A stretch of DNA of 64,000 bases, taken from positions 372,001 to 436,000 of the forward strand of contig NZ_VMBG01000001.1 of assembly GCF_007559335.1 (NCBI RefSeq). The letters run 5' to 3'. The notes under the pieces are model-generated. The model was not told the origin of the DNA. It saw only the letters and a program-made list of their open reading frames with translations, and did no database searches. Shown here in pieces: positions 7,242-22,269 of this stretch (the first letter of the stretch is position 1; each line of letters starts with the position of its first letter). The position numbers and the translations under genes were made by a program. The stretch is from Rariglobus hedericola. Its GTDB lineage: Bacteria; Verrucomicrobiota; Verrucomicrobiia; Opitutales; Opitutaceae.

Positions 7242-8330
7242 ATGTCCGCCTCCGTCTCCACGGTTTCACCTTCGTTGCCGCCTTGGGCGCTCGGTCCCTT
7301 TGTCCGCCCTGACAATGCCCGCCCTTTGATCCGCCCCAACGCCGCCTCATGCTTCGACTGCCCGTTGAGCCGGAAGCCAGTCGCGTGGGAGGCGCGCCAC
7401 ACTTTTAACCCCGCTGCCGTGGTTCATGAGGGGCGCGTGGTAATTCTTTACCGCGCCGAGGACGACCAAGGCCCCGGCGGCATTGGTGGCTACACCTCGC
7501 GCCTCGGTCTCGCCGTCAGCGACGACGGCGTCACTTTTCGCACCGAACCGCAGCCGGTTTATTTTCCCGCCGAAGACGCGCAAAAACCCTTCGAGTGGAC
7601 CGGCGGTTGCGAAGACCCGCGCCTCGCCACCGGCCCCGACGGCACCTACGTGCTCACCTTCACCCAGTTCCCCGGCCGCAATCCCGTCGGCGGCAACTTC
7701 CCGTGGCGCGTGGGTCTCGCCACTTCGCGCGACCTGCGCACGTGGACGAAGCACGGCAGCGCCTTCCAAGGCACGCCCCACGAAAACCTCCGCATCAAAT
7801 CCGCCGGCATTCTCCAGACGCTCGACCACGGCCGCCTCGTCGCCGCCCGCGTGCGAGGCAAATACTGGATGTATTTCGGCGAGTCGTTCGTGAGCATCGC
7901 CTCCTCGGACGACCTCGTGCACTGGACGCCGCTCACCGACGCGCACGGCGCACCGCTTCAGATCATGCGCCCGCGCGCCGGCTGTTTCGACAGCGAGTTC
8001 ACCGAGGTCGGACCACCGCCGCTGCTCACCGAGCACGGCATTGTGCTGGTTTATAATGGCAAGAACCGGGACCACGCCGCTGGCGGCGATCCGAAGCTGC
8101 CCACTGGTGCCTACGCCTGCGGCCAGGCGCTCTTCGACAAGGATGATCCCACGAAACTGCTCACGCGACTCGATCGCCCGTTTTTCCAACCTGAGCTCGA
8201 TTGGGAAACCGCCGGCCAATACGAGGCGGGCACCACCTTTGCCGAAGGTCTGGTCTTTTTTGAAGGCCGCTGGCTCCTCTACTACGGCTGCGCCGACACC
8301 TTTGTCGGCTGTGCACAGACTTCAGCTTAG
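7242..8330 (+). CDS. glycoside hydrolase family 130 protein (beta-mannoside phosphorylase type)
   Basis: GH130 enzymes phosphorolyse or hydrolyse beta-mannosides with a five-bladed beta-propeller. Visible family features are FNPAAVVHEGRVVILYRAED near the N-terminus, EWTGGCEDPRLA with the catalytic Asp, IKSAGILQ, and the closing-blade sequence WLLYYGCADTFVG. At 362 residues it has the usual length. I use ATG 7242; an upstream in-frame TTG at 7203 adds 13 unrelated residues. The last residues (CAQTSA) do not look like the family's usual VGVA ending. Repeat-derived sequence follows about 60 nt downstream, so the 3' end may have been altered. Confidence 0.85.
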   Translation: MSASVSTVSPSLPPWALGPFVRPDNARPLIRPNAASCFDCPLSRKPVAWEARHTFNPAAVVHEGRVVILYRAEDDQGPGGIGGYTSRLGLAVSDDGVTFRTEPQPVYFPAEDAQKPFEWTGGCEDPRLATGPDGTYVLTFTQFPGRNPVGGNFPWRVGLATSRDLRTWTKHGSAFQGTPHENLRIKSAGILQTLDHGRLVAARVRGKYWMYFGESFVSIASSDDLVHWTPLTDAHGAPLQIMRPRAGCFDSEFTEVGPPPLLTEHGIVLVYNGKNRDHAAGGDPKLPTGAYACGQALFDKDDPTKLLTRLDRPFFQPELDWETAGQYEAGTTFAEGLVFFEGRWLLYYGCADTFVGCAQTSA

Positions 8331-8390
8331 AAATCGGGTGAGTCCTTCAGTTTTAGTGAAATAGGACGGGAAGGATGCGCGGCTGGAAAG

Positions 8391-8420
8391 GCGAATACTG
8401 AAGGCCCATCCCCTTTCGGT
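8391..8420 (+). repeat. short interspersed repeat, copy 1
   Basis: CGAATACTGAAGGCCC followed by an ATCCCCTTTCGG segment recurs near 16285-16312, where the second part is GACCCCTTTGGCTCGA. It belongs to the REP-like family around the RAYT transposase at 14.2-15.3 kb. It sits in the 229-nt gap after the GH130 gene, in which I see nothing else clear. Confidence 0.6.
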
Positions 8421-8559
8421 CATTTGCACGCATTTGGCAATTTGACGAGTATTCGTCACGGAAACGTCGCGGCGCGTTTATTGCATTGGGAGTGGTCTGG
8501 TCCTCGTCTGATGCGGGCCATTTTGATCAGCCCGCCGCCATCCGAGTTCTCGCTTCACC

Positions 8560-11136
8560 ATGCCGCCTCTTCGTTTTTTCCGCGTTCGATTTTGTTTCTG
8601 TTTCCTGGCGTGGATGCTCGGGTTGGTCGCATCGCTGCAGGCGGACGAACGCATTCGCATCGTGGCGGCCAATCTCACCAGCGGTAACGCCCAGAGCTAC
8701 GATGCTGGTCACGGCGGTCGGATCCTGCAGGGACTCCAGCCAGATGTCGTGCTGGTGCAGGAATTCAACTACCTGAACCACACGACGGCGGATCTCCGCG
8801 CGTGGGTGGACGCGAATTTCGGCGCATCGTTTTCCTACATGCGCGAGCCCAACGCCGGCCAGATCCCCAACGGCGTTGTGAGCCGCTACCCGATTCTCGC
8901 CTCTGGAAAATGGGAGGATTCCAATGTGAGCAATCGCGATTTCGCCTGGGCGCGGATCGATATTCCGGGCGACCGCGATCTGTGGGTGATCAGCGTGCAC
9001 CTCCTCACCACCAGCGCCTCGAATCGCAACGCCGAGGCGTCGCAGATTCTCAACTACATCACGGCGCAGGGCATCCCGGCCGCTGATTACGTGGTGCTCG
9101 GCGGCGATTTTAACACCGTCAGCAACACCGAGGCGTGCATCGACACGCTGTCGTCTTACTTCGTGACCAGCGGTTCCTGGCCGGTCGATCAGGCGGGCAA
9201 CGGCGGCACCAATCGCAACCGCGACAAGCCCTATGACCGCGTGCTGGCCGACACGGATCTGAACGCCCGCAAGGTCCCCGTGGTCCTCGGTTCGCAGAGC
9301 TTCCCCAACGGCCTCGTCTTCGACAGCCGCGTTTATTCGCCCTTGCCGTCGCCGGTGCTGGAGAGCGACAGCGCCGCGACCAACATGCAGCACATGGCGG
9401 TGGTGCGGGACTTCATGATTCCCACCACCAGCGCGCCGGCGGTTCCGGCGATCTACAGCGCCGCCAACGCCAGCGGCACGGCCGGACAGACGTTCAGTTA
9501 TCAAATCGCGGCAACCAACACCCCGACAACATTCGGCGCCAGTGGTCTGCCGTCAGGGTTGAGCGTCAACACCGCCAGCGGCCTCATCTCCGGCACGCCA
9601 GCCGCGGCGGGCAATGCCACCGTCTCGCTCTCCGCGACCAACGCGAGCGGCACGGGCACGGCCACCCTGGCTCTCACCATCGTCGCCGCCGGCAGCGGCG
9701 GCGGGGGAGGGCAACCGGGCGTGGAGTTGCTGCGCGAGGATTTCGCGGCGCTGACGACCGGCAGCGACACGTCCAGCAGCGGCCCCAGCGGCACTTCGCA
9801 GAGCACCTTCGCGCCCAACTTTCCCTCCACCGCCCAGTTCTTTCCCGCTGGAGGCACGGTCAAACTGGGCAGCGGTTCAAACGTCGGTTCGATGACCAGC
9901 AAAGTTCTCAATCTCAGCGGCTCAGGCGGAGCCTTCACCGTGAGTTTCAAGGTCAAGGGATGGACCGCGGTTGAGGGCGATATCACGGTGACCGTCACCG
10001 GCCTGATCGCGCAAACGGTCACCTACACCAACACGCTTGCCGATGGTTACGTGACCAAGACGCTCAACTTCACGGGCGGCACGACCAACTCGACCGTCAC
10101 CATCGCCACCACGGCGAAGCGGGCCTTTATCGACGACGTGGTGGTTGCCAGCGCCGCAATCCCCGCCACCCCGACGCTCGCCACCAGCGGCACGCTCGCG
10201 GCGGTGAACACCATCTATGGCACCGCTTCATCGACACCCACCAGCTTCAGTGTTTCCGGAGCAGATCTCACTGCGGGCATCCTCGTAACGCCGCCCGCGG
10301 GCTTCGAGGTTTCGCAGACGACCGGCGGCGCGTCCGGCTACGCCTCCACGCAAACCGTGGGCGCGTCGGGCACCGTGGCGTCCACGACGATTTACGTGCG
10401 CCTCGCGGCGAGCACCGCGGCGGGTAATTATGTGGGCGTGGTGACCTGTTCCAGTGTCAGCGCCTCATCGGCGACCGTGCCGGTGGCGGCCAGCACGGTT
10501 GCCCGCCGGTCTTTGGTCGTCACCGCGCAAGATCGCAGCAAGCCCTTCGGCGAAGTGTGGAGCGCGGGCACCTCCGCGTTCACGGCGTCGGGTCTCGTGT
10601 CAGGACAGACCATCGCCGCGGTTGTGCTCAGCACGGTCGGCGGCACGGCGGCCTACGATGCCGCAGGAAGCTATTCGATTTTCCCCTCGAATGCTTCCGG
10701 CGGCAGTTTCACCGCCGCCAACTATAGTATTTCCTACGTGCAAGGCACGCTGACGGTGACCGCTCCGACCTTCGCGGAGTGGGCCGACGGACTGGCCGAC
10801 GCCACCCCAGCAGGTGATCCCGATGGCGACGGCATGGTCAATCTCCTCGAGTATTATCAAGGGCTCGACCCCGAGGTGTCGGACGGCCTTGCGCCGCAGA
10901 TCCAGTTCAACGGGGCCGAGCTGTCTTTCGAGTATCGTCACAGCAAGACGGCCAACGGCGTGACCGGCGCCGTGGAATGGACCACCGACCTCGCGGGCAC
11001 CGCCGTGTGGTCCGACGAGGAGGTCACCGATGAGTTGATCGAGACCTTCGACCTCTACGAACTCCGCCGCGCCACCGTGCCGGTGACCGCCGCCGAAACC
11101 AAGAAATTCTTACGCCTCCGAATCAGCCAGCCCTGA
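8560..11136 (+). CDS. secreted endonuclease/exonuclease/phosphatase family protein with Ig-like domains
   Basis: An 858-residue exported protein. A signal peptide (about 1-28, ending SLQA) precedes an EEP (DNase I/sphingomyelinase fold) domain at about 30-285. That domain has QPDVVLVQEFNY (metal-binding Glu), VVLGGDFNTVSN (GDFN) and a late MQHMAVVRDF in place of the usual SDH motif. A putative Ig/He_PIG domain follows at about 295-380, then a Gly-rich linker and a jelly-roll-like segment at about 390-530. Two MBG-like beta domains occupy about 540-745. The tail DPDGDGMVNLLEYYQGLDP is common in secreted verrucomicrobial proteins. Likely an extracellular nuclease or phosphodiesterase. The missing SDH Asp makes activity less certain. 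Confidence 0.82.
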   Translation: MPPLRFFRVRFCFCFLAWMLGLVASLQADERIRIVAANLTSGNAQSYDAGHGGRILQGLQPDVVLVQEFNYLNHTTADLRAWVDANFGASFSYMREPNAGQIPNGVVSRYPILASGKWEDSNVSNRDFAWARIDIPGDRDLWVISVHLLTTSASNRNAEASQILNYITAQGIPAADYVVLGGDFNTVSNTEACIDTLSSYFVTSGSWPVDQAGNGGTNRNRDKPYDRVLADTDLNARKVPVVLGSQSFPNGLVFDSRVYSPLPSPVLESDSAATNMQHMAVVRDFMIPTTSAPAVPAIYSAANASGTAGQTFSYQIAATNTPTTFGASGLPSGLSVNTASGLISGTPAAAGNATVSLSATNASGTGTATLALTIVAAGSGGGGGQPGVELLREDFAALTTGSDTSSSGPSGTSQSTFAPNFPSTAQFFPAGGTVKLGSGSNVGSMTSKVLNLSGSGGAFTVSFKVKGWTAVEGDITVTVTGLIAQTVTYTNTLADGYVTKTLNFTGGTTNSTVTIATTAKRAFIDDVVVASAAIPATPTLATSGTLAAVNTIYGTASSTPTSFSVSGADLTAGILVTPPAGFEVSQTTGGASGYASTQTVGASGTVASTTIYVRLAASTAAGNYVGVVTCSSVSASSATVPVAASTVARRSLVVTAQDRSKPFGEVWSAGTSAFTASGLVSGQTIAAVVLSTVGGTAAYDAAGSYSIFPSNASGGSFTAANYSISYVQGTLTVTAPTFAEWADGLADATPAGDPDGDGMVNLLEYYQGLDPEVSDGLAPQIQFNGAELSFEYRHSKTANGVTGAVEWTTDLAGTAVWSDEEVTDELIETFDLYELRRATVPVTAAETKKFLRLRISQP

Positions 11137-13186: not shown

Positions 13187-13289
13187 AAAGGCGTGCAGCA
13201 GCAGACCCTCAATTCCCCGAATGGTCGCGAATCTTGTTGTGCCGACCATCCTTCTTGCCGACGTGCGCGGCTACGACGACGCTCAAGCC

Positions 13290-13628
13290 ATGGCCAAGTA
13301 TCTCATTTCGTTTCCTGCGGAAGCCATGCAGTTAACGCCCGCGGATCTTCAGCAGGCATCCATCGACTCTCACGCGGTGGTTGCCGAGGCAAAGGCGGCG
13401 GGCGTGTGGGTGTTTGGCGGTGGCATCGATGAGAGCGTCGCGCCCGTGTTGGTTTCTGGGGACGGTTCGGTCTCGCCGACGATTCACCCGGGCAGCCGGT
13501 TGACGGGTGGGTTTGCGGTGTTGGAAATTGCGACACGCGACTCAGCGCTCGAGTGGGCACGGAGGTTCGCGGTGGCTTGCCGCACGTCACAGGAATTACG
13601 CGTGTTCCTGTTCAATCCGGAGAGCTGA
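13290..13628 (+). CDS. YCII-related domain protein
   Basis: A small (112 residues from ATG 13290) protein with the YCII/ferredoxin-like pattern: N-terminal MAKYLISFPAEAM, an AGVWVFGGGID strand and VSPTIHPGSRLTGGFAVLEI, ending in RVFLF. The frame is open back to ATG 13221, but MAKYLISF looks like the true start. YCII proteins are small cytoplasmic enzymes or accessory domains of mostly unknown function. The 3' 190 bp and the repeats after it are duplicated at 16318-16585. Confidence 0.72.
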   Translation: MAKYLISFPAEAMQLTPADLQQASIDSHAVVAEAKAAGVWVFGGGIDESVAPVLVSGDGSVSPTIHPGSRLTGGFAVLEIATRDSALEWARRFAVACRTSQELRVFLFNPES

Positions 13629-13640
13629 GGGTGGCGGGTG

Positions 13641-13684
13641 GTCCCTTTGGCTCGCATCTAGCGGCCTGATCGCCTCGGCTCGAC
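13641..13684 (+). repeat. short interspersed repeats, copy 3 (tandem pair)
   Basis: GGTCCCTTTGGCTCG is followed by ATCTAGCGGCCTGATCGCC and CGGCTCGA. The same two-part arrangement recurs at 16521-16585 after the duplicated YCII fragment. Between the two halves that copy carries about 18 extra nt. Confidence 0.6.
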
Positions 13685-14231: not shown

Positions 14232-14248
14232 GGTCGCTTTTCGTGAAT

Positions 14249-15263
14249 GGGGTCAGGCCGAGTATTATTGTATTTTGCTATTTCTGGATCGGCTCATCAT
14301 CGAGCGTGCAGTGCCTTCTGCACCGAGTGCCAATTCTCGCGTCAGCCAGGAAACGGACGCGCCGCTTTCCGTGCGCACGGACTGGGCAAGCTTAAGCTTC
14401 CACGGGGCGGTCTTGGGTGCAGCCAAAGCTTCGGTCTGATTGCGGCCGGTCTCACGGAGTTTCTTGTCGAGCAACTCCCGCCATTGTGCCTCACGCAAAG
14501 CACGCGCTTCCTGAGAGGCCAATCCTGGCGTCAACGCCATGCTCTTATGCTCGGCGGCCAGCGTGCGTTGCCAGTCCGTTCCGCCGATGGCCCAGCCCGT
14601 GGAAAACGCTTCATATCCAAGGCGTTTTTGTTCCTCTTGGTTGGCCGCCAGTGCGATCAAGTGCTCGACGTAGCCCGACCACCCATCGGGCGTATCGCTC
14701 CAGCCACGCCCGTTCAAAGCCCCCTCGGGGTCCAGTCCGGCAAACCGCGGTCCTCTGAGAAAACGCGCCAGACTACTCCAGCGAAACGCTCCGACTTGGG
14801 AAGCTTCTACGACCTGGGCTCTCACTGGATTGAGATGCACATAATCGATCACATGCCCCATGACACGCGCATCTTCAATCGGAAGGGCCTGATAACGCCC
14901 TTGGAAAAGATGCCCGCGCTCCTGGCGGAAGCGATTAAACCGGGTTGCCGTGGTGCTCATCAGCCAATGCATCCCCTCGGTCAGGTTCGGTTGCGGCGTC
15001 TCCACGACCAAATGAAAGTGATTGCTCATCAAAGCATACGCCTGCAACCGCCACCCATATAAAGCTACCGCCTCCTCCAGCGTCTGCACAAAGGACTGCG
15101 CCGCACCGACAGTTTCAAAGACATCGCGGCGATAGTTGCCGCGGTTGATGACGTGGTAGATCGCGCCGGGGTATTCGAGCCTCAGTTTTCTGGCCATGAG
15201 GGGATTGCGGCGAATCGGGCGGGGCGTTCAAGGCAGAAATACAACAATACTCGGCCTGACCCC
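14249..15263. mobile_element. RAYT element bounded by 27-bp inverted repeats
   Basis: The left end (14249-14275) and right end (15237-15263) are reverse complements over 27 nt with one mismatch, with core CTCGGCCTGACCCC and an A/T-rich inner part. Between them is a single transposase gene, whose stop codon lies inside the left repeat. The layout matches REP-associated tyrosine transposases flanked by inverted REP sequences. I see no clear target-site duplication. The element separates the hypothetical membrane gene from a PEP-CTERM gene fragment. Confidence 0.72.
14265..15197 (-). CDS. REP-associated tyrosine transposase (RAYT, Y1_Tnp/IS200-like)
   Basis: A 310-residue protein of the TnpA_REP group, single-strand DNA transposases related to IS200/IS605. 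The N-terminus MARKLRLEYPGAIYHVINRG is typical. The HUH pair is in ALMSNHFHLVVETP (H-x-H). The helix with the likely nucleophile Tyr is in HLFQGRYQALPIED, followed by VIDYVHLNPVRA, another family hallmark. A C-terminal extension of about 130 residues is polar and poorly conserved. Such proteins move or maintain REP sequences, and related repeats are scattered over the surrounding 8 kb. Confidence 0.93.
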   Translation of the reverse strand: MARKLRLEYPGAIYHVINRGNYRRDVFETVGAAQSFVQTLEEAVALYGWRLQAYALMSNHFHLVVETPQPNLTEGMHWLMSTTATRFNRFRQERGHLFQGRYQALPIEDARVMGHVIDYVHLNPVRAQVVEASQVGAFRWSSLARFLRGPRFAGLDPEGALNGRGWSDTPDGWSGYVEHLIALAANQEEQKRLGYEAFSTGWAIGGTDWQRTLAAEHKSMALTPGLASQEARALREAQWRELLDKKLRETGRNQTEALAAPKTAPWKLKLAQSVRTESGASVSWLTRELALGAEGTARSMMSRSRNSKIQ

Positions 15264-15279
15264 CTTGGCTCGACGCGAC

Positions 15280-16053
15280 AGCCTTAACTTCGGCACCGGC
15301 GCCGTGTTGATGGAAGCTTCCGAGACAATGACAGTCAACGGCAGCACTCTGACCATGGGCGGTGTGATCAGCAGCAGCGAAGGCGGCGGAATCACCAAGG
15401 CCGGTGCAGGCACGCTCGAGCTCGGCGGAGCCAACCTCTACAACGGCGCCACCTTGGTCAATGCGGGCACCCTGCTCGTCAACGGCTCGCTCGCCTCCGG
15501 CAGCGTGGTGACGGTGAACTCGGGCGGAACGCTGGGCGGCTCCGGCACGATCAACGGCGCGACCACCATCGCCACCGGCGGCACGCTCGCCCCCGGTAAC
15601 AGCCCCGGCCTGCTTACCTTTGGCAGCAACCTCACCCTGGCCACCGGTAGCACCACCGTCTTCCAAATCGACGGCACCAATCGCGGCACCACCTACGATG
15701 CGATCAACCTCACCACTGGCACGTTAACCTACGACGGTGCGTTCAATCTGGTCTTCGGCACGACCGTCCAGGATGGCACCGCCCTCGATTTCTTCCGCCT
15801 GTCGGGTAACGGAAGCACTGGCAGTTTTTCGTCGATTCTCGCGAGCGGCAGCTATAGCGGCCTGTTTACGAACGACGGCGGCGTGTGGACGCTCGTCAAC
15901 GGAGCGCAAACGCTCACGTTCTCGCAGACCACAGGCGATCTTTCGTTTTCCAGTGCCGCCGTCCCCGAGCTCTCGACCTACACGGCACTTTTCGGCGCGT
16001 GCTCCCTCGGCGTCGCCGCGTGGCAACGCCGGCGGAAGTTGCGGGCGGCGTGA
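15280..16053 (+). pseudogene. autotransporter-type beta-strand repeat protein with PEP-CTERM-like tail, 5' end missing
   Basis: The reading frame continues through the right end of the RAYT element (LTPLARR is encoded by the repeat), so the native start and signal peptide are gone. What remains is a passenger C-terminus: GITKAGAGTLELGGANLYNG and GTLLVNGSLASGSVVTVNSG, then the GNSPGLLTFGSNLTLATGST pattern usual just before the end. The tail AAVPELSTYTALFGACSLG with QRRRK is a PEP-CTERM-type signal in which the second Pro is Leu. No start or export signal remains, so I treat it as a remnant. Confidence 0.78.
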
Positions 16054-16317: not shown

Positions 16318-16509
16318 CGCGCGCCTGTGTTGGTTTCTGGCGACGGTTCGGTCTCGCCGACGATTCACCCGGGCAGCCGGTTGACGGGTGGGTTTGCGGT
16401 GTTGGAAATCGCGACGCGCGACTCAGCGGTCGAGTGGGCACGGAAGCTCGCGGTGGCTTGCCGCACGTCGCAGGAATTGCGCGTTTTCCCGTTCAATCCG
16501 GAGAGCTGA
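16318..16509 (+). pseudogene. truncated second copy of the YCII gene 3' end
   Basis: This stretch repeats the last 190 bp of the YCII gene at 13290-13628 with about ten mismatches by eye (roughly 95% identity) and ends at the same stop, FNPES. It begins exactly where a REP-like repeat ends (GGCTCGA), so it lacks the first half of the domain. The remaining frame can start only inside the repeat. Most differences are silent or mild, so divergence is fairly recent. Confidence 0.8.
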
Positions 16510-16520
16510 GGCTGAAGGGT

Positions 16521-16585
16521 GGTCCCTTTGGCTCGATGGGACCTGAAAACTAGCATCTAGCGGCCTGACCCTTCGCTCGACTCCC
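16521..16585 (+). repeat. short interspersed repeats, copy 6 (tandem pair)
   Basis: GGTCCCTTTGGCTCGA (16521-16536) is followed by ATCTAGCGGCCTGACCC (16555 on) and CGCTCGACTCCC. This is the same pair that follows the intact YCII gene, duplicated together with the gene fragment. It marks the edge between the scarred region and the lower-G+C three-gene operon. Confidence 0.65.
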
Positions 16586-16618: not shown

Positions 16619-18085
16619 CTAACGTAGCGGTTTTACACCGCCTCTGCGTCCTAATCCGAATGCTATACGATAAACGTCAGGCATCTGTATGCGGCCATCA
16701 CTCAATTGCTGAACGATGCCTAGATCTTCCAAATCAATTAGCACGCCCATTCCACCTTCTCCGAGGCGAGGAGGGGGGAGTTTTACGTCGCCCTGTATAC
16801 TTGCAGTTTTTAGTGTCTTAATGACATTGCTCCCTGACCATAATTCCATAATTTGGTCTACTTCACAGGGGACGGAAATACTGCTGAGGGGTTCTATAAG
16901 CGATTTCACCCACGGGTAGTCTTCGATCACCTCAGCAACCCGGATTTGAGAGGCTGCTTGAACCCCTGTTTGTATGGATTTGTAATGGAGCGGGTATTCC
17001 CACCCATGCGGCAGATCGCCAGCCGCAGCCCTACGAAGTGCCGCGGAGAAACTACGCGGGCTTACCTGTTCGCGACCATCAAGAAGGTGATTTGGTAGCC
17101 ATGTATACGGATAGCCGCGTTTATTTCCGCTTCCCATTGCTGGGCCTGCAATGGCGTGAAATGCGTTTCTTTGAGTAACCTCATCTATTCTAAGGATGCT
17201 GGGTAATATCCAGGTATTAGTGGTTTTGTCTTCTTTCCAGCTCAATCCATAATGCTTTTTAAAGTGGATGCGTATTTCTTCACCGCTATTTTGTGCATTA
17301 CCTAAACATTGAAATAATAGAGCATATAGGTCTACACTTCGCCAGGTGAGCGTTACCTTTCTGGCTAACAATTTTGAAGAGTCTGGAAATGCTAAAATTT
17401 CCTTGTCCTCTATCATGTCAGGACGAACAAATAGCTTGAGTCTGATGGCGCGACAGCTGCGAATATCTAGAGCAAGTTGAAAAAGAGCCTTTGCCAAGGG
17501 GCGAATTGAAACCCAATCGTTTGCTAGCCTATCTAAGGCATCAAACAATACTAGATGGAGTCTCTTTGCCTTTAAAAGGGCGCAATCAGCGTTTTCAAGT
17601 AGCTCGTCGTAATCCTCTGGGTTTTCAGAGGTCCACTTAACTCTTTCCGCCCACTTGCCTTCTCTGCTCGGAAAAGGCGATGGAAAATCAAGATGCGTTG
17701 CTATTACAGCTTTCCAGATGTCTCTACAGGCGTATTTTTTCGTTAGTAAATCGAGGGTGTCTTTACTAGGAGCGTCGACCTTTGTTAGTCCTGTTCCAAA
17801 TCCATGCGATATTTTGAGGTTAGTGCCAATTCGAGCCTCCGGGAAAACCGAAGCTAGGTAGTTCCTGTGTGGTTTTGAGTTTAGCACAGCCCACCAGTGA
17901 CTTTTCCCTGCACCTCGTATACCTTCGACTATTGTGTTGTCTGGATCAAGGGCCTTGGCGTGGCTTGCAGGAACGTAGGTGAATGCAGGGTCCCGTGTAG
18001 TAAACGAAGATGATTCGTCATTTCCAGGAAGTGCTTCGATTAGTGCACTGCGAGTGACCTGTCTGGGGAATGTATCTGTGTTCAT
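16619..18085 (-). CDS. P-loop ATPase of a three-gene putative conflict operon
   Basis: A 488-residue protein of no family I can name. A Walker A motif GIRGAGKS lies at 55-62, and the preceding NTIVE strand is usual for STAND/AAA-like NTPases. A Walker B-like strand RLHLVLFDALDRL lies at 175-187, with the acidic pair D182/D185. Between them are about 110 residues without motifs. After Walker B, RLKLFVRPDMIEDKEIL resembles a sensor strand, followed by a long mixed C-terminal half that could recognise a partner or ligand. It is the last gene of the operon; its ATG overlaps the stop of the ParA-like gene by 4 nt. Base composition is visibly lower in G+C than flanking genes. Confidence 0.72.
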   Translation of the reverse strand: MNTDTFPRQVTRSALIEALPGNDESSSFTTRDPAFTYVPASHAKALDPDNTIVEGIRGAGKSHWWAVLNSKPHRNYLASVFPEARIGTNLKISHGFGTGLTKVDAPSKDTLDLLTKKYACRDIWKAVIATHLDFPSPFPSREGKWAERVKWTSENPEDYDELLENADCALLKAKRLHLVLFDALDRLANDWVSIRPLAKALFQLALDIRSCRAIRLKLFVRPDMIEDKEILAFPDSSKLLARKVTLTWRSVDLYALLFQCLGNAQNSGEEIRIHFKKHYGLSWKEDKTTNTWILPSILRIDEVTQRNAFHAIAGPAMGSGNKRGYPYTWLPNHLLDGREQVSPRSFSAALRRAAAGDLPHGWEYPLHYKSIQTGVQAASQIRVAEVIEDYPWVKSLIEPLSSISVPCEVDQIMELWSGSNVIKTLKTASIQGDVKLPPPRLGEGGMGVLIDLEDLGIVQQLSDGRIQMPDVYRIAFGLGRRGGVKPLR

Positions 18086-19392
18086 TCGTTTTCCTTAGTG
18101 GCCAAATGGAATGCCGCTTCAAGGAACTCCCCGAAGCTAGAATCGATATCCGATTTGGTTAAAATTTTTCGAGAAAGGAGTAGTGGGTCGAATTCTTGAA
18201 ATCTATTATTCCATTTGATGCGTAGCGGTGAATGCGGCGCTGACTCGTCCTTTAGATCAAAGCTAAATGTGTTTTCTTCGTTTTGGCCGGGTGCGATCTC
18301 CTCATAGAGATTTTCCGAAAAAAGCTTATAAGAACGATCTAGAAATTGGGCCGCCCGTGTTGCTTGATTCGTTTCAGGGAAAAGTGCATCCACTATCCAA
18401 AGTTTCTCCCTTACTTTTTTTGCAATTTTGGGACGCATTCTCCAGTGGGAAAAGAGATGTCCGTAACCCTGCCATGTTTGTGCGGTATCGGTGGCAAAGA
18501 GGAATGCATGTGTCGCCAACACGACTATGCTTAGTGCACCTAGATCATGCAGGCCAGCTCTGCTATCGATTAAGATTACATCTGGCTTTTCTTGTTCTTC
18601 CAGCGAGTTGATGAGTTTTGCGATGCGCTCCGAAAACCGTAAACTTTTCCCTCCGGATGATACGTCTGCATAAACACGTGACAATTTGTCCAAGTAAAAT
18701 GACTCGTCCATGCCCATCGATGCCGCTATGCGGATCTGCCCAGTGGTGGTCTCCGCTAGTGGACTTACTGATATCATTCTTGATAAAACCGCGTCGCCTT
18801 GGCCATTGGCATCTTCCAATAGCCAATCAATAATTCCAAATTCAGCCATCTTGTCCGGGGGGAGGAGGAGGCCGGAAAGACCCGGTGATTCTAGATCTAG
18901 GTCAATCAAAAGCACGTTTTTTCCCTCTTGGGCTAACCGATAGGCAAGCATTGTAAGGGCTGTAGACCTGCCTACGCCACCTTTTAGACTAAAGAAAACT
19001 AGGCGAGGGATATTAGTCGTGGTTTCCGGTTCAATTGAGGACCAATCTTGGCCAGTGATTTGCCTGTCCAGGAGCTGTATTTTGAGCGTTTGTCCGTCAA
19101 CAGGGATAAATACTTCCAGAATGGCTGGATCGTTGAAGATATCGTTACTGTTGAATAGTTCGTCTTTGAATATGACTCCAGAGTCGGCGGCGAGATATGT
19201 ATCGATAGCACCTAGTTTTGAGATAATCTCTGTGCGTAGATTTTGATGCTCATCGGAATTTGCGTCTATGGCGACTCTAATGCGGCCGTGTATATCTCTA
19301 ATCACTAATGGTTTTATGCCAGCAGGGAATTCGATTTCATTTAATACCTTAGCCGCGCCTTTTATGGCGTCATTGAAAAAAATGGGTTTCAT
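18082..19392 (-). CDS. ParA/MinD-type ATPase with KGGVGR Walker A variant
   Basis: A 436-residue protein. Residues 1-125 form an N-terminal domain I cannot assign. A SIMIBI-class ATPase domain follows: FFSLKGGVGRST at 133-144 (deviant Walker A, keeping signature Lys137 but with Arg142 in place of the P-loop Lys), LLIDLDLESPGLSGLL at 161-176 and DVILIDSRAGLHDLGAL as the Walker B/switch region. No ParB, centromere repeats or septum-site genes are nearby, so partition or cell-division roles are not favoured. It is coupled by 4-nt overlaps to the HEPN-like gene upstream and the P-loop ATPase gene downstream. KGGVGR-type ATPases occur in other poorly characterised multi-gene systems. Confidence 0.8.
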   Translation of the reverse strand: MKPIFFNDAIKGAAKVLNEIEFPAGIKPLVIRDIHGRIRVAIDANSDEHQNLRTEIISKLGAIDTYLAADSGVIFKDELFNSNDIFNDPAILEVFIPVDGQTLKIQLLDRQITGQDWSSIEPETTTNIPRLVFFSLKGGVGRSTALTMLAYRLAQEGKNVLLIDLDLESPGLSGLLLPPDKMAEFGIIDWLLEDANGQGDAVLSRMISVSPLAETTTGQIRIAASMGMDESFYLDKLSRVYADVSSGGKSLRFSERIAKLINSLEEQEKPDVILIDSRAGLHDLGALSIVVLATHAFLFATDTAQTWQGYGHLFSHWRMRPKIAKKVREKLWIVDALFPETNQATRAAQFLDRSYKLFSENLYEEIAPGQNEENTFSFDLKDESAPHSPLRIKWNNRFQEFDPLLLSRKILTKSDIDSSFGEFLEAAFHLATKENE

Positions 19393-19832
19393 GTGCTGAC
19401 TCCGTCAATTTTTGCTGCTTGTAGCATTGCGATGACTTCTTCGGCGGCGGCCTTCCATTTATCAGTCGATGTGGGAATGCTGCTCTCCTTGTAATATCTA
19501 TGATCTACGTTCCAATCTCCAAAATGACTAATTTTTGTGAGCATTGACGTGTATTTAACCGCCGTTCTTCCGCTGAGTGTTAAGTTGATCGCGTTAAATT
19601 TGGCGGGAAGTGCATTAATATGATTTCTTAATGCACTTCCGTAGGGTGGCGATCCATTGGCGTCTTCCGCGTGCCTGTGCCACATGAATAATGCTTTAAT
19701 CCCGCACTCTGCACAGAACCCATATAATTGACCAGCATTTGGCATTCTTGAATTCGAACGCAGTAGCTCAGCATCATCGAAGTGGCGTTTAGCTGATGCA
19801 AAAAAGTCAACTGGTTTGAGTGCCGCGGTCAT
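19389..19832 (-). CDS. HEPN-like small protein, first gene of the three-gene operon
   Basis: A 147-residue, mostly helical protein. FASAKRHFDDAELLRSN followed by NAGQLYGFCAECGIKALFM fits the helical pair of HEPN-type proteins (RHxxDAxxL, then a long helix with AECxxKA). I do not see a clean R-x4-6-H RNase motif. RNHINALP at about 81-88 is the closest candidate. HEPN proteins often act as RNases or as adaptors in toxin-antitoxin and anti-phage systems. The start is 28 nt from the stop of the isocitrate dehydrogenase gene, leaving little room for a separate promoter. Confidence 0.55.
   Translation of the reverse strand: MTAALKPVDFFASAKRHFDDAELLRSNSRMPNAGQLYGFCAECGIKALFMWHRHAEDANGSPPYGSALRNHINALPAKFNAINLTLSGRTAVKYTSMLTKISHFGDWNVDHRYYKESSIPTSTDKWKAAAEEVIAMLQAAKIDGVST

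Positions 19833-19860: not shown

Positions 19861-22269
<2,409 letters not shown>

Follow-up and report, generated by a model that had tools for sequence, protein, structure and literature searches.

What is a tightly packed cassette of three genes with unusually low G+C doing directly behind the isocitrate dehydrogenase gene icd of a verrucomicrobial genome? The question arises from a 64,000-nucleotide stretch of Rariglobus hedericola DNA (NCBI RefSeq assembly GCF_007559335.1, contig NZ_VMBG01000001.1, positions 372,001 to 436,000 of the forward strand), referred to here as the window. An initial annotation, made from the sequence alone, described three minus-strand genes coupled by two 4-nucleotide overlaps and lower in G+C than both flanks, and proposed a mobile defence cassette. 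Open reading frame (ORF) calls reproduce this layout: the genes, named A, B and C in their order of transcription, fill positions 16619-19832 of the minus strand and have 4 nucleotides in common at each joint.

19389..19832, minus strand: gene A, HEPN protein of 147 amino acids, PDC-M28A (ORF call; PADLOC PDLC04558; AlphaFold model)
18082..19392, minus strand: gene B, KGGVGR-motif SIMIBI ATPase of 436 amino acids with an N-terminal domain of about 115 amino acids, PDC-M28B (PADLOC PDLC04559; NCBIfam NF047398)
16619..18085, minus strand: gene C, STAND/ORC-Cdc6-like P-loop NTPase of 488 amino acids, PDC-M28C (PADLOC PDLC04561; structural matches)

The trio has a G+C of 0.461, against a mean of 0.617 (standard deviation 0.018, minimum 0.576) for windows of equal length in the rest of the 64 kb, a drop far outside chance.

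The initial annotation could find no named system for the trio, a gap that is now filled: a PADLOC profile search identifies PDC-M28 (models PDLC04557-04561) in all three components. Over their full lengths, A corresponds to PDC-M28A (PDLC04558, E-value 1.1e-38), B to PDC-M28B (PDLC04559, 7.3e-147) and C to PDC-M28C (PDLC04561, 2.7e-173). The three components are present and adjacent in the order A-B-C, as in PDC-M28, and no separating feature was found; judged by these profiles, the trio is almost certainly a complete member of this candidate system. According to PMC12988326, which cites Payne et al. 2024 (bioRxiv 10.1101/2024.01.29.577857), PDCs are candidates found by their embedding in other defence systems. 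The papers searched contain no mention of PDC-M28, KGGVGR or Sll1717, and PDC-M28 is apparently a catalogued candidate that has never been described or tested. A hit to a named system was what the initial annotation had said would count against it; the match does so for novelty but leaves function untouched, PDC-M28 being no more than a candidate.

Comparative analysis shows that the cassette is conserved across distant hosts. Loci gathered by protein similarity, with genomic context left unused, comprise 23 non-viral loci and 12 viral contigs, 35 in total. The A-B-C order and the tight joints recur across all of them in differing phyla, with a few exceptions: in Gemmobacter the C gene extends across the point where a circular record begins, and ORF calls on two verrucomicrobial copies give just a short A reading frame. 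Hosts of the trio include Verrucomicrobiota, Desulfobacterota, alpha-, beta- and gammaproteobacteria, Streptomyces and Calothrix. Full-length C occurs in 3 of 388 genomes of a Verrucomicrobiota sample and in 6 of 395 genomes from the phylum of the Desulfobacteraceae genome G610; 14 control genomes gave no match. These genome counts use PDC-M28C; PDC-M28B matches ParA-type proteins in all 14 controls. B is found on 15 of 72,556 plasmid records, with C alongside in most. Scanning viral contigs with B alone found none, and the trio contigs came from alignment-based scans. Isolated phage genomes searched with B, the DNA of one prophage trio and a prophage C protein gave no match, nor did complete Escherichia coli genomes match the trio at the DNA level.

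Maximum-likelihood trees of B and C have largely matching clades. In both, the window copy groups with gammaproteobacterial and desulfobacterial copies, a second verrucomicrobial copy (G284) with Tistrella and desulfobacterial copies, and a third (G456) with Burkholderia and Paraburkholderia plasmids. The placement of three verrucomicrobial copies in three separate clades implies horizontal movement of the trio, and the trees indicate that the cassette spreads horizontally as a unit. G610 holds three PDC-M28C loci, L078 (the same as L003), L075 (L092) and L080 (L094), two of which are full trios in different clades. In genome G962 (locus L093, 2452-3876), an apparent deletion has joined part of B to C, and A was not found, which looks like a decaying or reduced copy.

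The initial proposal of a mobile, defence-associated cassette is well supported by loci within BREX operons, restriction-modification (R-M) loci, plasmids and prophages. In BREX type 2 operons, the trio lies between pglX and a DUF6079/'phage resistance' gene that precedes pglZ (Thiodictyon pTs417 and Sphaerotilus pSna507), or between pglW and pglX (Streptomyces NBC_01334). It directly follows a type III MTase_III-REase_III pair in G610, has a DUF1156 methylase on one side and a PLD helicase on the other in G938, and at L003 neighbours a type IIG enzyme as well as an HKD+Snf2 helicase. On IncF conjugative plasmids of Enterobacter it adjoins an integrase, and on three further plasmids it lies beside recombinases. 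Prophage contigs carry it with lambda-type NinB and replication genes on either side (L125, L138), next to P2-type portal, terminase and head genes (L127, L130), adjoining integrases (L128, L129, L135), near a serine recombinase (L133) or next to a gene that, by sequence alone, resembles one for a type I restriction subunit (L132). In most of these contigs the trio has a lower G+C than the surrounding phage DNA, as it does in the window.

A single shared integrative element behind this spread was considered and rejected: the plasmid tyrosine recombinases are only distantly alike, except on two Enterobacter plasmids. On an Enterobacter asburiae plasmid, a TIR-domain gene adjoins the trio (L045, 11100-11903). 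The N- and C-terminal halves of a BREX PglX at L094 enclose the gene of a lone divergent PDC-M28C-like protein (7684-9153), with BrxC upstream and PglZ and BrxL downstream; this lone C may serve BREX itself.

Protein A had been called HEPN-like, and structure prediction agrees. Its AlphaFold model is a helical bundle (mean predicted local distance difference test, pLDDT, 83.3) whose best solved matches are seven HEPN-fold proteins (Z 9.7-11.6 over 110-120 residues), and Foldseek relates it to HEPN proteins with a probability of up to 1.00 and an E-value of just 0.05. Because helical bundles readily match one another, Z values by themselves do not settle the fold, but HEPN proteins top both match lists of A, and the model and the solved matches display the four-helix HEPN bundle. 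The AbiV structure 9bj6 matches with Z 6.7. Sequence searches of the PDB with A and C profiles returned no meaningful relative, and folds alone matched. Among 33 homologues of A, which share 23-46% identity with the window protein, R16, G38, E42, K46, R112 and Y113 are invariant (33/33), and H71 and W107 are kept in 32. Three of these residues merit separate listing.

19707..19709, minus strand: codon of E42 in A, the acidic residue of helix 2 (33/33 homologues)
19620..19622, minus strand: codon of H71 in A, between helices 30-51 and 72-86 (32/33 homologues)
19497..19499, minus strand: codon of R112 in A (W-x4-RY), the HEPN-motif basic residue without a following H (33/33 homologues)

The HEPN survey PMC3710099 places the conserved acidic residue in helix 2 and describes AbiV and AF0298 as retaining the R, losing the H and carrying a second conserved H in an insert between helices 2 and 3. 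A has the same combination of R, alternative H and helix-2 acidic residue in R112, H71 and E42. The positions fit the AbiV/AF0298 site as well, with H71 falling between the helices at 30-51 and 72-86 and E42 being part of helix 2. Alignment and model therefore fit a HEPN bundle with an AbiV-type alternative set E42/H71/R112, and by analogy A may be an RNase. With the Lactococcus HEPN RNase AbiV and with HEPN-T proteins of the AF0298 type, A has in common the HEPN fold, the retained R, the missing H of Rx4-6H and the alternative H; it differs in that the sequence match is weak and in being encoded with two NTPases.

Protein B is the KGGVGR ATPase that the initial annotation named, scoring 186.2 bits against NCBIfam NF047398 (KGGVGR-motif ATPase, cut-off 90). 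It is a SIMIBI ATPase with the motifs DxDxE.PG and DxRxG.

18967..18984, minus strand: KGGVGR P-loop of B, residues 137-142 (K137, G138, G139, G141 and R142 invariant, 35/35)
18553..18567, minus strand: DSRAG switch/Walker B region of B, residues 276-280 (D276, R278 and G280 invariant, 35/35)

The MinD/ParA deviant Walker A motif, KGGxGK[ST], has a P-loop lysine, which R142 replaces in all 35 copies of B. An arginine at this place is expected to give slower or altered ATP turnover, which leads us to read B as a probable switch rather than a motor. In the N-terminal part of B, R32, G36 and W117 are also invariant (35/35). Residues 1-117 (within 18085-19392 of the window) have no family match and keep D33 in 34 of 35 copies. 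In PHROG, B has a ParA-like match.

Protein C, described earlier as a second P-loop ATPase, is modelled with confidence (pLDDT 89.6, predicted template modelling score 0.88), and its solved matches uphold that description and give it a STAND-like fold. The closest folds are the archaeal STAND-like ATPases 2qen (Z 14.1) and 2fna (Z 13.6), followed by CED-4 (13.3), the plant NRC4 resistosome (13.1) and ORC2/Cdc6 proteins (12.7). Foldseek lists ORC2 (1.7e-5), the N-domain of the BREX ATPase BrxC (2.4e-5) and Cdc6, and C also resembles TnsC/MuB folds. The STAND/ORC-Cdc6 fold is accompanied by intact Walker motifs, and an FxRxD motif is kept in nearly all 35 copies.

17900..17923, minus strand: Walker A GIRGAGKS of C, residues 55-62 (G55, G58, G60 and K61 invariant, 35/35)
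17531..17545, minus strand: Walker B FDALD of C, residues 181-185 (D182 in 35/35; D185 in 33/35, E in the other 2)

Residues 153-441 of C partially match the Sll1717-family P-loop ATPases (NF047389, E-value 8e-12), with a score of 45 bits that stays under the family cut-off of 75. Pfam assigns no family to the window protein, while 11 of 18 homologues show a weak NACHT match.

Taken together, the best explanation of the trio is an infection-triggered, probably abortive antiphage switch in which C would sense, B would gate and A would cut RNA, a reading to which we assign a probability of about 0.5. Defence against phage as such is the firmer part and is probable, while the three individual roles are put forward tentatively. 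Under this mechanism, C, as a STAND/ORC-Cdc6 NTPase, would oligomerise on detecting a cue of infection or the failure of a primary defence (BREX, R-M). B, as an arginine P-loop SIMIBI ATPase, would keep A silent and free it once C fires, and A, a HEPN protein with the E42/H71/R112 set, would then cleave RNA and halt the growth of the infected cell. The division of labour suggested initially, with the ATPases sensing or assembling and the HEPN protein as effector, is plausible.

Several known systems resemble this arrangement in part. The nearest worked-out parallel is PrrC, outlined in PMC3710099 as a HEPN nuclease silenced by the R-M system that shares its locus and freed when a phage disables that system. 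As would hold for the trio, PrrC in the PrrI restriction locus combines a HEPN nuclease with control by an NTPase and forms a second line inside the operon of another defence system; it is one protein with an ABC-type NTPase, whereas the HEPN, SIMIBI and STAND-like parts of the trio are separate. The same source (Anantharaman 2013) predicts dyads of HEPN and ParA/Soj-type ATPases as toxin-antitoxin modules. The HEPN(MAE_18760) dyad also sets a HEPN gene beside a SIMIBI ATPase gene, but its HEPN keeps the Rx4-6H that A does not show, and no third NTPase is described for it. Stand-alone HEPN genes embedded in BREX loci are read as back-up effectors in PMC12839542. The trio sits inside BREX type 2 operons on three plasmids in like manner; it differs in not being a BREX component, and the window's genome lacks PglZ.

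A number of observations weigh against the antiphage switch. Further literature searches found no test of PDC-M28 function. The embedding of the trio partly repeats the cataloguing criterion, because PDCs are defined by embedding; unlike that definition, the prophage cargo was detected without using context. Many collected loci have no obvious defence neighbour. On Streptomyces plasmids (L053, L099, L100, L101), C occurs without A and B and with differing upstream genes, so C must have other uses. No PglZ was found in the window's host genome, which means that a BREX back-up role cannot apply here and that the trio would act alone or with another partner. Finally, A may not be a nuclease, because its match to Pfam HEPN_AbiV (E-value 0.0046, 17.6 bits) falls below the gathering score of 27.1 and the canonical Rx4-6H is absent: no column pair among the 33 homologues forms a conserved one, and the pattern is wholly missing in 9 of them, the window protein included. 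A could then serve as a helical adaptor that joins the two ATPases together or attaches them to nucleic acid, with an NTPase-driven effect on phage such as a block of replication or packaging. This would suit the top structural matches of A, which are stand-alone HEPN-T proteins and not known toxins, and the resemblance of C to ORC/Cdc6, BrxC N-domain and TnsC/MuB folds, which act on DNA. However, E42, K46, H71 and R112 are invariant or nearly so despite the low identity of the 33 sequences to the window protein, the H and R positions are those of the alternative active site proposed for AbiV in PMC3710099, and PDB entry 9bj6 gives AbiV as an RNase. An adaptor role is unlikely, if worth keeping in view.

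Considerably less probable is a maintenance module, of toxin-antitoxin or partition-like type, in which B or B and C together would neutralise A and stabilise plasmids, prophages or islands, with defence as a secondary effect. The dyads predicted as toxin-antitoxin modules in PMC3710099, the plasmid records that carry B mostly with C, the prophage trios and the ParA-like PHROG match all point in this direction. Yet 15 plasmid records in 72,556 make B rare there, chromosomal copies and copies embedded in R-M or BREX loci occur, no ParB-type partner accompanies the trio, and the P-loop arginine found in every copy of B is unlike partition ATPases. Both the adaptor and the maintenance module carry lower weight than the antiphage switch. 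A housekeeping or metabolic operon tied to the neighbouring icd gene was also considered.

19861..22092, minus strand: icd, monomeric isocitrate dehydrogenase, context outside the system (Pfam IDH, E-value 0)

This gene lies directly upstream of A on the same strand, its stop codon ending at 19861, and a search of the 28-base gap found no promoter-like or terminator-like site; the trio may share icd transcription. A functional tie is nonetheless very improbable and is contradicted by distribution: genus relatives keep icd without the trio, and no annotated plasmid copy adjoins icd. The G+C of the trio is also anomalous. Chance ORFs are likewise excluded by the conserved order and tight joints in homologues from other phyla.

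For the antiphage switch, the survey supplies conserved residues in all three proteins together with natural variants in prophages, conjugative plasmids and BREX-2 operons (in two positions), and the conserved sites make the PDC-M28 mechanism directly testable. If the mechanism holds, ParA-type ATPases, STAND-type sensors and HEPN nucleases would be joined in one innate-immune circuit, which would hint at the purpose of the KGGVGR ATPase class. A bolder version, which we regard as speculative and somewhat unlikely, is that PDC-M28 is a mechanistically new immune switch: an arginine-P-loop SIMIBI lock between a STAND/ORC sensor and an H71/R112 HEPN RNase, guarding BREX or R-M systems and also serving prophages as a weapon against rival phages.

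The surroundings of the trio in the window bear on how it arrived. In genus relatives, DNA similarity spans icd. It ends at the icd stop (19861) in four of five comparisons, and in the remaining one no more than seven bases from that point. The trio was not found in the other genomes of the genus that were searched, which gave weak ParA-type matches only. Because the relatives' homology ends at the icd stop and their genomes lack the trio, these comparisons indicate a horizontally acquired insertion just behind icd. The initial description of a repeat-scarred region on one side and the icd stop on the other also holds, with interspersed short repeats, a transposase gene and a duplication downstream of the trio.

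14265..15197, minus strand: IS200-like (Y1) transposase, context outside the system (Pfam Y1_Tnp, 1.6e-13)

Inverted repeats of 43 nucleotides bracket this gene (arms 14233-14275 and 15237-15279). The transposase is of the REP-associated type, with several 'CCCTTTGGCTCGACG'-like elements nearby and repeats that reach 16600. A 216-nucleotide duplication at 94% identity (13439-13654 and 16320-16535) has its second copy directly downstream of C; this copy looks like a stranded gene fragment, because the first overlaps an ORF at 13221-13628. Another ORF, at 15196-16053, combines a passenger-associated-transport repeat with a C-terminal anchor-like end and may be what is left of a larger autotransporter-like protein.

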